This document shows, piece by piece, positions 17,313 through 64,000 of a stretch of DNA of 64,000 nucleotides. Under the pieces are notes generated by a model. The model did no database searches. It was not told the DNA's origin and worked only from the letters and a program-made list of their open reading frames with translations. The translations under genes were made by a program, and so were the position numbers. The first letter of the stretch is position 1, and every line of letters starts with the position of its first letter. Source of the DNA: an uncultured Verrucomicrobiae bacterium (lineage in GTDB: Bacteria > Verrucomicrobiota > Verrucomicrobiia > Limisphaerales > AAA164-E04); NCBI GenBank assembly GCA_951813855.1, contig OX638380.1, positions 4,618,518-4,682,517 of the forward strand, written 5' to 3'.

Positions 17313-17347
17313 GACTCTTCTCGATTACCGGGAAGGGTCTTTTTTTT
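17313..17347 (+). terminator. Riboswitch-controlled intrinsic terminator
   Basis: GACTCTTC (17313-17320) pairs with GAAGGGTC (17332-17339) with one G-U pair, followed by eight T (17340-17347). It sits about 20 bases after the aptamer and 45 before the coding start. Sequence around P1's 3' strand (GATGAGAA) can compete for TTCTC in the 5' arm, giving a plausible antiterminator. This is the expected expression platform of a SAM-I switch. Confidence 0.88.
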
Positions 17348-17391
17348 AACTTACATCGCAACAACGGTATCCCATGAGCAAAGGAAACGGT

Positions 17392-18630
17392 ATGATGAGA
17401 GCCTTGAAGTGTCGCGAGTGCGGCCGCCAATATCCGCTCGAGGCTCTTCATGTCTGTGATTTCGATTTCGGGCCTCTCGAAGTAGTCTACGACTACGAAC
17501 GCATCCAGGGAGTCATGACTCGGGATCTGATCGTTTCCCGGCCCCAAACCATGTGGCGGTATCGCGAACTCTTGCCCGTGGTCGACGATCCTACGGTCGG
17601 ATTCGAGGTCGGCTTCACGCCTTTGATCAAGGCGGACCGGTTAGCCGAGCGGCTCGGCGTGCGGGAACTCTGGGTCAAGAACGATACGGTCAACTATCCT
17701 TCGTTGTCGTTCAAGGACCGGGTGGTGAGCGTCGCCCTGAGTCGTTCGCGGGAACTCGGCTTCGACACGGTCGCCTGCGCGTCGACCGGCAATCTGGCTA
17801 ACTCGGTGGCGGCCAACGCGGCGGCGGCCGGGTTGAAAGCCTACGTCTTTATTCCGGCGGATCTGGAACAAGGGAAAGTGCTCAACTCGCTGGTTTATCA
17901 GCCGCAGGTGATCGGGATTCAGGGGCATTACGATCAAGTCAATCGGCTGTGCGCCGAAATCGCCGGCAAGTACGGTTGGGCCTTCGTGAACGTGAACATG
18001 CGGCCTTACTACGCGGAGGGTTCCAAGAGCATGGGGTTCGAAATCGTCGAACAACTCGGATGGCGCGTGCCGCAGCATACGGTCATTCCCATGGCTTCGG
18101 GTTCCCTGTTGACCAAGATTCACAAGAGCTACCGGGAGCTGAGCGATTTGGGGTTGGTCGAGGCTTCGGGATGGCGGATTCACGGAGCGCAGGCGGGCGG
18201 CTGTTCGCCGATTTCACAGGCGCAGAAAGCGGGCCTGGATTTTTTCAAACCGGTCAAACCCGAGACGATCGCCAAATCGTTGGCTATTGGTACGCCGGCG
18301 GACGGCTTCTACGCCTTGCGCGTAATGAAAGACACCGGCGGGGCGGCCGACGACGTTACCGACGACGAGATTCGCGAAGGCATCAAGTTGTTGGCCGAAT
18401 GCGAAGGCATTTTCGCCGAAACGGCCGGGGGAGTCACCGTGGGCGTGGCGAAGAAACTGATTGCCAGCGGGAAGATTTCCGCGGAAGATTCCGCCGTTCT
18501 TTGTGTCACCGGACATGGACTGAAAACTTTGGACGCCGTTCAGGGTTGCGTAGGAAAAGCGCGGGAGATTAAACCGAGCCTTCGCGAATTTGAATCCGCG
18601 TTGACGGGCGACGGGCAACTGACCCGTTAG
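17392..18630 (+). CDS. Threonine synthase-like PLP enzyme under SAM-I control
   Basis: An upstream ATG exists at 17374, but AAAGGA (17380-17385) is well placed as ribosome site for ATG at 17392, so I start there. The protein has an N-terminal zinc-ribbon-like segment (LKCRECGRQYPLEALHVCDF) and a fold-type II PLP domain. The PLP Lys is in LSFKDRVVS (residue 114 counted from 17374), followed by ACASTGNLANSVAANAAAAG and the phosphate-binding GGC region; CVTGHGLK is near the C-terminus. The family converts O-phosphohomoserine to threonine. Riboswitch control and the downstream sulfur-carrier and NIL genes suggest instead (or also) a sulfhydrylation giving homocysteine or cysteine. Family certain, reaction inferred. 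Confidence 0.85.
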   Translation: MMRALKCRECGRQYPLEALHVCDFDFGPLEVVYDYERIQGVMTRDLIVSRPQTMWRYRELLPVVDDPTVGFEVGFTPLIKADRLAERLGVRELWVKNDTVNYPSLSFKDRVVSVALSRSRELGFDTVACASTGNLANSVAANAAAAGLKAYVFIPADLEQGKVLNSLVYQPQVIGIQGHYDQVNRLCAEIAGKYGWAFVNVNMRPYYAEGSKSMGFEIVEQLGWRVPQHTVIPMASGSLLTKIHKSYRELSDLGLVEASGWRIHGAQAGGCSPISQAQKAGLDFFKPVKPETIAKSLAIGTPADGFYALRVMKDTGGAADDVTDDEIREGIKLLAECEGIFAETAGGVTVGVAKKLIASGKISAEDSAVLCVTGHGLKTLDAVQGCVGKAREIKPSLREFESALTGDGQLTR

Positions 18631-18650: not shown

Positions 18651-18938
18651 ATGGCAGTACACATTCGAGTCCCGACCCCCTTGAGAAAATTCACCGACGA
18701 CTCCGAGGTGGTCGAAGTAGAGGCTGAGAGCATCGCGAGCGCCATTCAAGCTTTGCAGGCCAAATTTCCGGGCATCGGCGAACGGTTGATCGACGAATCC
18801 GGCGAGGTGCGGCGGTTCGTCAACGTTTACGTCAACGGCGAGGATATCAGATTCCTGAAGAATCGCGAAACGGCGCTGAAGGACGGCGACGAAATTAGTA
18901 TCATTCCGGCGATAGCCGGCGGGCAAAACGAAAGTTGA
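18651..18938 (+). CDS. MoaD/ThiS-family sulfur carrier protein with residues after Gly-Gly
   Basis: 95 residues, ubiquitin-like beta-grasp fold: VHIRVPTPLRKFT at the start, FVNVYVNGEDIRFLKN in the middle, LKDGDEISIIPAIAGG at the end. In this family the terminal Gly-Gly is adenylated and converted to a thiocarboxylate that donates sulfur. Here Gly90-Gly91 is followed by four more residues (QNES), so processing by a JAMM-type protease would be needed first, as for QbsE or HcyS. It lies 20 bases after the threonine-synthase-like gene and 6 before the NIL gene. CysO/HcyS-like use in amino-acid sulfhydrylation is more likely than molybdopterin synthesis; inference. Confidence 0.88.
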   Translation: MAVHIRVPTPLRKFTDDSEVVEVEAESIASAIQALQAKFPGIGERLIDESGEVRRFVNVYVNGEDIRFLKNRETALKDGDEISIIPAIAGGQNES

Positions 18939-18944
18939 ACGGCT

Positions 18945-19268
18945 ATGGCGACGACCTCGTCTCGCAAACGCGTCCCTAAGAAGACGGTGAAGAAGGCGGC
19001 GAAGAAGGCCGCCGGCCAGGATAAGGTCGAGCGGCGCCGGCTTTGGTTGATGTATCCTTCCCGTTTGATCAAGGAACCGGTCGTTTGGAAACTCGGGGTC
19101 AAGTTCGAGTTGATTCCCAACGTGCGGCAAGCGAGCGTCACGGACGAATTGGGCATCGTTTGCCTGGAATTGTCCGGTCGCCGCGAGAAATTGAAAGCGG
19201 CGGTCGCGTGGCTGGAAAAGCAGGGAATCCGAGTCGATCCGGTCGAAATCAACGTGATGGAAAGTTGA
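18945..19268 (+). CDS. NIL-domain protein with Lys/Ala-rich N-terminal tail
   Basis: 107 residues. Residues about 1-30 are rich in Lys and Ala (KRVPKKTVKKAAKKAAGQ), resembling histone H1-like tails. Residues about 32-105 are a NIL domain: LWLMYPSRLIKEPVVWKLG, ELIPNVRQASVTDELGIVCL and LEKQGIRVDPVE. NIL domains occur as methionine-responsive modules of MetN transporters and in a methanogen protein needed for homocysteine formation. The third gene of the riboswitch operon, it is probably cotranslated with the carrier (6-base gap). It could be a methionine sensor or a sulfur-transfer partner; the basic tail may bind nucleic acid or be a flexible linker. Confidence 0.85.
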   Translation: MATTSSRKRVPKKTVKKAAKKAAGQDKVERRRLWLMYPSRLIKEPVVWKLGVKFELIPNVRQASVTDELGIVCLELSGRREKLKAAVAWLEKQGIRVDPVEINVMES

Positions 19269-62136: not shown

Positions 62137-63561
62137 TCAGCCGGAAGCCGAAATGGTTTTCAAGTCGGCCCGCACTTCCCGGTAGGAAACCCGATAATTG
62201 AGAACCGCCTCGTCCGGTTCGACTTGCCGTCGGCGGCAAGCTTCCCGATACAGGTCGGGCCACCAATTGCGGTGTTCGGTCAACCCGTCCTTTTGCCAGC
62301 GCTCCCAATCCATGAGTACTTTCGACCAGCAACGATCGCCGTAAGCGACCGCTTGCTGAGGATCGGTCATTTGGGAGAGGTACCAGTCGCGGCCGATCCG
62401 GGCATGGAGCACTTCGTCCGCCCAATCGTAATCCTGAAACAGGGCTGATAGCGGATTGCCGGAGGCTTGAGCCACTTCCCATTCGAAGCGCTTCCCGGTT
62501 TTGGCCATCAAACCCTGTTCGATAAAGTACAGTACGGCGTGACGTTCGAGCGGAGTCAATTGGGTGTTGAGCGCCAACGACCAAGTGAAATTGACCATCG
62601 CATGGCGCCAGTCCACTCCTAGTTGCGCGAACCCGACTTCGCCCATCATCGCGTGCCGGGCTTCGTCCCATAGTTGCCGCGTCATGTCGCGGTAGTAAAG
62701 CCACGAGCGGTCCGGAGTCTCCACGATAATGCTGGCCATCATTTCGGGCACGTCGATTTCCCTGAGCCGTTTAAAAAACATCATCAACGTCTTGGGTTCG
62801 GCTGAGAAGGAGTCGTCGTACAAAAAAGCTTCGGCGTTGACGGCCATGTTGTAGGGATCCGGAAACCGGCTATCCCGGCGGGGGCGGGGGTCGTAGCGCC
62901 AAGGCTTTCGGGAATGACATCTCTCCTTGAGAGTGTTCTCGGTCGGCGAAATGCCGTCCAGGCCGCCGGCCGCTTGCAGGTATTCGTCAAGCCGGTCGAG
63001 CCAAGGTTCGGCTCGGCTGCGGCAATCTTCGGCGACCAACGAAGCCACGGCTTCGCGACCGAAGTTTTCCATCTGGAGCAGATCTTGCCGGGCGAACTTG
63101 AGTGCGCGGGTCGAGGGATAATCCGCCAGGGGATTGGTGTCTTCCAGGTGGCGAGCCATCGCTCGGGAGAGTTCCGGAATCGCCTTTTGATAGAGCGCCG
63201 TCAGCCGTTCCTCCGTAGTCGGAGCGCTGCGGATCTCGTCGAAATAGATCTCCAGATGAGGATCGGGTATTTTGTCCAAACCCAGCGGAGGTTCCCGCAT
63301 TTCGGAAATGCGGTCGCGGAGGGAAGTGACGATTTCGGCGCACAAGTAGGCGTGCAGCGAAAAGGCCGATTTCAATTCGTAGATCGGTTCGGAAGTGATC
63401 TGCGCGGTGAAGATGCCGTGCAACCGTTTGCCGGCGTAATGGAACCGCTTGAGGCGCGCGACGCACTCTTTGACCGTCAACCCTTTTTTGGCCGCCTCTT
63501 CGAAACTGCAGATTCCGCCCAGCGGCGGCAGGTTTCGGTAACTGGAGTACGACTGAGTCAT
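62137..63561 (-). CDS. Ferritin-like helical protein of unknown function
   Basis: The frame is open from 63660, but ATG 63561 gives MTQSYSSYRNLPPLGGICSF and avoids a low-complexity start; 474 residues. It is helical throughout. YRDMTRQLWDEARHAMMGEV and the later DYDWADEVLHARIGRDWYLS look like the E-x2-H metal-binding pairs of ferritin-like or DUF455-type di-iron proteins. Downstream helices are Trp-rich. It may be an oxidase or oxygenase; substrate unknown. It lies 35 bases after the JAMM gene on the same strand. Confidence 0.65.
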   Translation of the reverse strand: MTQSYSSYRNLPPLGGICSFEEAAKKGLTVKECVARLKRFHYAGKRLHGIFTAQITSEPIYELKSAFSLHAYLCAEIVTSLRDRISEMREPPLGLDKIPDPHLEIYFDEIRSAPTTEERLTALYQKAIPELSRAMARHLEDTNPLADYPSTRALKFARQDLLQMENFGREAVASLVAEDCRSRAEPWLDRLDEYLQAAGGLDGISPTENTLKERCHSRKPWRYDPRPRRDSRFPDPYNMAVNAEAFLYDDSFSAEPKTLMMFFKRLREIDVPEMMASIIVETPDRSWLYYRDMTRQLWDEARHAMMGEVGFAQLGVDWRHAMVNFTWSLALNTQLTPLERHAVLYFIEQGLMAKTGKRFEWEVAQASGNPLSALFQDYDWADEVLHARIGRDWYLSQMTDPQQAVAYGDRCWSKVLMDWERWQKDGLTEHRNWWPDLYREACRRRQVEPDEAVLNYRVSYREVRADLKTISASG

Positions 63562-63596
63562 CGGGCCGTTATACCGGATAACGAACGGAAACGGAA

Positions 63597-64000
63597 TCAG
63601 CCGTTGCGGGAACCGCCGCCGTTCCCCAGTTCCGGAAACGCTCGCCGGTCGGGATCCCATCCGAATTGTTTTTGCGCCGCCACGATCGGTTTTCCTTCGC
63701 TCCGTCTCACGGAGAGCACCAGATAGACGGTGCCGGGATATAGCGGCTCGGGCGGTTCGCCGAAGGTGGCGCGACGAAAATCTTCGTCGGAAAAATAGGC
63801 GTCCGTATCGATATGGGAATGATAGATCAGAGCGATCCGTTCCTCGCGGTCGCGCAATTCCTGTTCGATCGCGAACAGTTCCTGGGGCGCCATGGCGTAG
63901 GCGGTTTTCGCCGTGCGGGGGAACCGAACGGGGTCGCGGCGGTGCAAGGAATCCTGCACGTTTTCGCAGGCGCGAATCCTGGTTAGCCGGGACGTATTCC
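63597..64000 (-). CDS. JAMM/Mov34 metalloprotease (Mec-like), cut by window edge
   Basis: The frame is open to the right edge and a GTG at 63959 lies inside a conserved block (RACENVQDSLHRRDPVRFPR), so the true start is beyond the window. The JAMM zinc motif is complete on its His side: HSHIDTDAYFSDED fits His-x-His-x7-Ser-x2-Asp. Further blocks are YPGTVYLVLSVRRSEGKPIV and a short C-terminal tail. Mec-type JAMM enzymes cleave amino acids or C-terminal extensions from ubiquitin-like sulfur carriers (CysO, QbsE, HcyS). The catalytic Glu should lie in the missing N-terminal part. It may serve the carrier encoded at 18651-18938. Confidence 0.88.
   Translation of the reverse strand, partial: NTSRLTRIRACENVQDSLHRRDPVRFPRTAKTAYAMAPQELFAIEQELRDREERIALIYHSHIDTDAYFSDEDFRRATFGEPPEPLYPGTVYLVLSVRRSEGKPIVAAQKQFGWDPDRRAFPELGNGGGSRNG

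Follow-up and report, generated by a model that had tools for sequence, protein, structure and literature searches.

A tailed MetO/CysO-type sulfur carrier and a distant, CysM-paired JAMM protease in a Verrucomicrobiae bacterium

Results

The window analyzed here is a 64,000-nucleotide stretch (C1:4618518-4682517) of the single 4.89-Mb contig that makes up the genome of an uncultured Verrucomicrobiae bacterium. It contains a three-gene operon on the forward strand, preceded by a SAM riboswitch aptamer (RF00162; 17168-17293; Rfam 71.8 bits against a gathering score of 44.4) and, between the riboswitch and the first gene, by an intrinsic terminator hairpin of 11 pairs plus T8 (17313-17347). The three genes encode a 418-residue MetM-like PLP enzyme that is a threonine-synthase paralogue (17374-18630; TIGR00260, 268.8 bits), a 95-residue sulfur carrier of the MetO/CysO type (18651-18938), and a 107-residue NIL-domain protein (18945-19268; PF09383, 34.8 bits). 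The order metM–carrier–NIL is kept across relatives, with the NIL gene as conserved third member, and a search of 19 further loci from relatives found the SAM riboswitch at 12. The folding z-score of the riboswitch leader is not significant, whereas its covariance-model match is; a simple scan found no sigma-70-type promoter.

Several features connect this operon with homocysteine synthesis. The host encodes CysK, TrpB, and a separate threonine synthase whose gene adjoins that of aspartokinase elsewhere in the genome; because of this latter arrangement, the ThrC-like neighbor of the carrier is unlikely to serve as the threonine maker. Moreover, the operon appears to stand in place of MetB/MetY/MetZ. 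The match of the host to PF01053, the MetB/MetC/MetY/MetZ family, is weak (E 6e-7), and among 196 genomes of the order a strong PF01053 match was absent from 97 of the 133 with an operon-type carrier versus 15 of the 63 without one (p 8e-11). In fifteen genomes of the order sample, both a metM-type operon and a strong PF01053 gene are lacking. The ThrC-family enzyme beside a carrier, the threonine synthase encoded separately, the upstream SAM riboswitch, and the replacement of PF01053 enzymes match, at the level of sequence, the MetM/MetO pathway to homocysteine known from Streptomyces (Hasebe et al. 2024, doi 10.1128/aem.01247-24, as cited and described in PMC12172450), and homocysteine is predicted to be formed from O-phosphohomoserine.

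The carrier belongs to the ThiS/MoaD family (PF02597, 65.5 bits), and SAMP1/MoaD_arch models match it as well. It is homologous to CysO of Mycobacterium tuberculosis (3DWG, E 4.8e-20), its closest solved relative, while its named relatives are Verrucomicrobia, chiefly Limisphaerales/Pedosphaera kin. Since its gene lies in a SAM-riboswitch operon with MetM-like and NIL partners, the protein is predicted to be a MetO-type homocysteine carrier. As the original prediction had it, four residues follow the Gly-Gly: the open reading frame ends AIAGG-QNES, with terminal codons GGC GGG CAA AAC GAA AGT TGA, the GG at 18918-18923, and the tail at 18924-18935, where congeners have TAA or CGG-TAA. The matching profiles stop at the second Gly, and the alignment with chain C of 3DWG spans residues 2-91, up to the terminal GG. 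The other two ThiS/MoaD proteins of the host have GG termini and no tail, and no second CysO-like carrier was found in its genome. A 298-residue frame of the same genome (L003:832-1728, approximately C1:2678088-2678984) combines a hypoxanthine-type phosphoribosyltransferase with a C-terminal MoaD domain ending VQGG, and a MoaE frame overlaps its end. Tandem carriers also occur among relatives: G021 (L151:1507-2083) has the order metM, carrier, carrier, NIL, and similar arrangements are present in G005, G006, G017, G064, G095, G137, G155, and G180, the second copy being 48-55% identical to the window carrier.

The Mec-like JAMM protein noted earlier at the right edge of the window (63597-64000, reverse strand) is a genuine member of its family. 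The gene is cut by the window edge; in full (C1:4682114-4682620) it encodes a 168-residue Prok-JAB metalloprotease with a complete E...HxHx7SxxD motif, in which 20 homologues show no variation at E26, H95, H97, S105, and D108. An AlphaFold model reaches a pLDDT of 91 with these 20 homologues and is poor without an alignment; the predicted fold is closest to Pyrococcus furiosus JAMM1 (PfJAMM1) bound to the ubiquitin-like SAMP2 (Z 15.4, rmsd 2.2, 129 aligned residues). Just outside the window, the first 4 bases of the JAMM gene overlap the end of a CysM-like gene (TIGR01138, 355 bits, under the cut-off of 394), an adjacency retained in four of four congeners and shared with the CysO/Mec/CysM system, and the two products are predicted to constitute a Mec/CysM pair. 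On its other side, the JAMM gene is followed by that of a 507-residue protein (62137-63660, reverse strand) with only a weak DUF455 match. This is the only Prok-JAB gene in the single-contig genome; a weak, RadC-level Prok-JAB match present in most relatives is absent from the host. The ThiF family is likewise represented by one gene, which encodes a MoeZ-type E1-rhodanese matching the PRK07878 MoeZ model over its full length (511 bits, below the cut-off of 647). The carrier gene lies 45 kb from the JAMM gene and is thus in a different operon from mec and cysM; its own operon consists of metM, carrier, and NIL only, with no JAMM gene of the kind that accompanies QbsE or HcyS.

Tails and JAMM proteases were compared in three samples (the order, named genomes of several phyla, and the phylum), which partly overlap, so that a pooled p should not be used. 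JAMM matches were counted as strong from about 45 bits upward, or when similar to the host JAMM, which separates them from the RadC-like background; Prok-JAB matches of only 20-30 bits in frames of ~240 residues were excluded as RadC-like by size and score. Across all samples, 14 tailed carriers (tails of 1-21 residues) and one carrier-E1 fusion were found, all of them in genomes that encode a strong JAMM; no tail was present among about 160 carriers of JAMM-less genomes. A search for tailed relatives lacking JAMM, which would have spoken against the original prediction, returned none. The order sample covers 137 carrier ends; the tails among them are QNES in the host (G000), R in G123, TR in G059, and C in G111; these four genomes and that of the fusion, G108, all have a strong JAMM (5/5). 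With the fusion left out, tails occur in 4 of 11 JAMM genomes versus 0 of 125 others (p 2.4e-5). JAMM genomes are clustered in few families, so that genomes are not independent; counted by family, tails are present in three of four JAMM families versus none of 42 others (p 2.6e-4). A lax JAMM count that includes many intermediate Prok-JAB matches still gives p 4e-4. The named genomes have tails in 9 of 14 JAMM genomes versus 0 of 31 others (p 2.3e-6), the nine being F, I, S, R, RR, AA, IE, SEV, and one of 21 residues, with JAMM matches of 56-88 bits; conversely, JAMM accompanies 9/9 tailed but 5/36 GG-ended carriers tested in that sample. In the phylum sample, where the tailed carriers were found by pattern, JAMM is present with both of them (G000, and G361 with tail ITEKFQI) and with none of nine stop-terminated ones.

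In G108 (L134:2204-3634) the carrier is fused in one frame before a MoeB/ThiF-rhodanese E1, and JAMM and CysM genes lie directly upstream. In G111 (L277:3-188, a fragment at a contig edge) the carrier ends GG-Cys, which is a genetically encoded copy of CysO-Cys, the normal substrate of Mec. Yet most JAMM genomes of the order sample carry untailed carriers. As JAMM genomes so often still end their carriers in GG, the protease appears to permit tails rather than to exist for them. An acquisition of JAMM for processing the tail was considered and rejected, since carriers end at GG in relatives that share this JAMM-CysM pair.

The tail of the host carrier appears to be lineage-specific. Among the 80 orthologues first fetched from named genomes, 71 end exactly at GG, including every one from Verrucomicrobia at 62-75% identity. 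The nearest species in a FastTree tree (G020, support 0.94) is untailed, with the codons GGC GGT TAA, as is G158 with the same codons, while the congener G123 reads GGA GGT CGG TAA. Stop-codon loss is the simplest origin of the tail, judging from the TAA that the nearest species has where the host has CAA (Q92). With QNES, R, and a plain GG-stop all occurring among congeners, tails within the genus look young and unconserved.

Discussion

The present study suggests that a carrier of the methionine pathway is made as a precursor and matured by a protease of the cysteine pathway. Specifically, the carrier would be synthesized in an inactive form ending GG-QNES, and the only JAMM protease of the host, the one paired with CysM, would hydrolyze the Gly-Gln bond. 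The exposed Gly carboxylate would then be adenylated and thiocarboxylated by the single MoeZ-type E1-rhodanese, and the thiocarboxylate would feed MetM for the conversion of O-phosphohomoserine to homocysteine. It probably also feeds CysM, whose substrate would be O-phosphoserine or O-acetylserine, yielding carrier-Cys, from which the same JAMM would free cysteine by the same Gly-X peptide cleavage. Removal of QNES is thus most likely a by-product of this cysteine-releasing reaction, and the tail would have arisen by stop-codon loss and been tolerated since the protease was already present. We consider this account, taken as a whole, probable. Of its elements, the anatomy of the genes, the riboswitch, the gene pairing, the catalytic residues, and the confinement of tails to JAMM genomes are observed, while we infer the cleavage itself, the use of one carrier by both pathways, and the neutrality of the tail. 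The 45 kb between the two genes, the untailed carriers of most JAMM genomes of the order, and the clustering of JAMM genomes in few families speak against it.

The chemistry of the CysO system offers a rationale for such tolerance. The CysO-cysteine adduct rearranges to a peptide bond after the GG. CysM adds cysteine to the CysO thiocarboxylate, and Mec hydrolyzes the CysO-cysteine adduct (PMC3227635). A tail made by the ribosome is attached through just this kind of bond, and the tailed carrier of G111 is that very molecule. Loss of the carrier stop codon can therefore be tolerated in a genome that has Mec, whereas without Mec the carrier should cease to function, since the E1 requires a C-terminal Gly that is free. 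The model accounts for the variability of tails, their occurrence only with JAMM, and their frequent absence from JAMM genomes. The use of a single carrier by MetM and CysM in the host we infer from the lack of another CysO-like carrier in its genome and from two loci of other genomes (L073, L075) in which metM, carrier, and cysM lie side by side. More tentatively, and with slightly less than even confidence, we propose that a single carrier serves MetM and the CysM-JAMM pair, and that acquisition of JAMM lifted the strict GG-stop constraint, with tails, including ribosome-made carrier-Cys, arising repeatedly. If so, bacteria would possess a route to ubiquitin-like precursors that require processing.

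Other explanations must accommodate the same distribution. The tail might be a selected, regulated pro-sequence that keeps the carrier inactive until it is cut by JAMM, coupling methionine synthesis to the status of the cysteine pathway; in its favor are the SAM control of the operon and the occurrence of tails only alongside JAMM. However, tails are not conserved, ranging over QNES, R, and none within one genus and from 1 to 21 residues with differing first residues elsewhere, and the nearest species in the tree has none; we therefore regard this as unlikely. Bacteria possess other peptidases, and tail cleavage by JAMM is a prediction, so that a general peptidase might remove the tail and the JAMM correlation merely mark lineages with the Mec/CysM pathway. 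Such a peptidase would permit tails without JAMM too, contrary to their absence from the JAMM-less carriers surveyed, which makes this quite improbable. Finally, a single base change turns the stop of the congeners into Gln, as a TAA-to-CAA sequencing error would. The presence of tails in 13 other genomes, one of them a congener and all with JAMM, together with the clean short tail given by the next TGA ahead of the NIL gene, renders an artefact very improbable. The tolerated, JAMM-trimmed tail remains our preferred reading. The proposal that carrier and JAMM form a processing pair despite their distance is, at the level of comparative genomics, supported by the confinement of tails to JAMM genomes and by the host JAMM being its only one.

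Although the parts are of known kinds, we found no description in the open literature of an unlinked carrier-JAMM pairing in a MetM/MetO carrier or of short tails being strictly confined to genomes with JAMM. The old proposal that ubiquitin-like carriers with tails or fusion partners are matured in bacteria by JAMM proteases is here given a clean comparative-genomic test, in a family of carriers of which the most familiar, CysO, terminates at GG. The survey also suggests a way in which precursors needing processing, like those of eukaryotic ubiquitin, may evolve: a protease serving another reaction is in place beforehand, and loss of the stop codon is then tolerated. Furthermore, the MetM/MetO methionine route is placed in Verrucomicrobiota under a SAM riboswitch, with most operon-bearing genomes lacking the usual PF01053 enzymes.

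Several known systems resemble this one in part. In QbsE/QbsD and HcyS/HcyD, the carrier has residues after the GG that the JAMM protein is thought to remove, and the two are co-encoded. The original prediction likened the present carrier to QbsE and HcyS; the likeness holds for the residues after GG and the JAMM in the genome, with cleavage after GG predicted, but the carrier is of the MetO/CysO type, and here carrier and JAMM are unlinked and JAMM is associated with CysM. The JAB/ThiS-MoaD/E1/cysteine synthase neighborhoods of Iyer et al. 2006 (PMC1779556, classes 4b-4d), in which JAB was proposed to free fused carriers, hold the same parts list; in the passages of that paper considered here, short tails and a tail-JAMM association are not described. 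As in Streptomyces MetM/MetO (Hasebe et al. 2024, as cited in PMC12172450), a ThrC-like enzyme lies beside the carrier under a SAM riboswitch, whereas here the carrier bears a tail, a NIL gene lies downstream, and a CysM-JAMM pair is present as well. The closest parallel is CysO-CysM-Mec of M. tuberculosis (PMC3227635), with its homologous carrier, CysM-like synthase and JAMM pair, and MoeZ-type E1-rhodanese. In contrast to CysO, which ends exactly at GG and is encoded with mec and cysM, the verrucomicrobial carrier has a C-terminal extension and is encoded 45 kb away, within a methionine operon.
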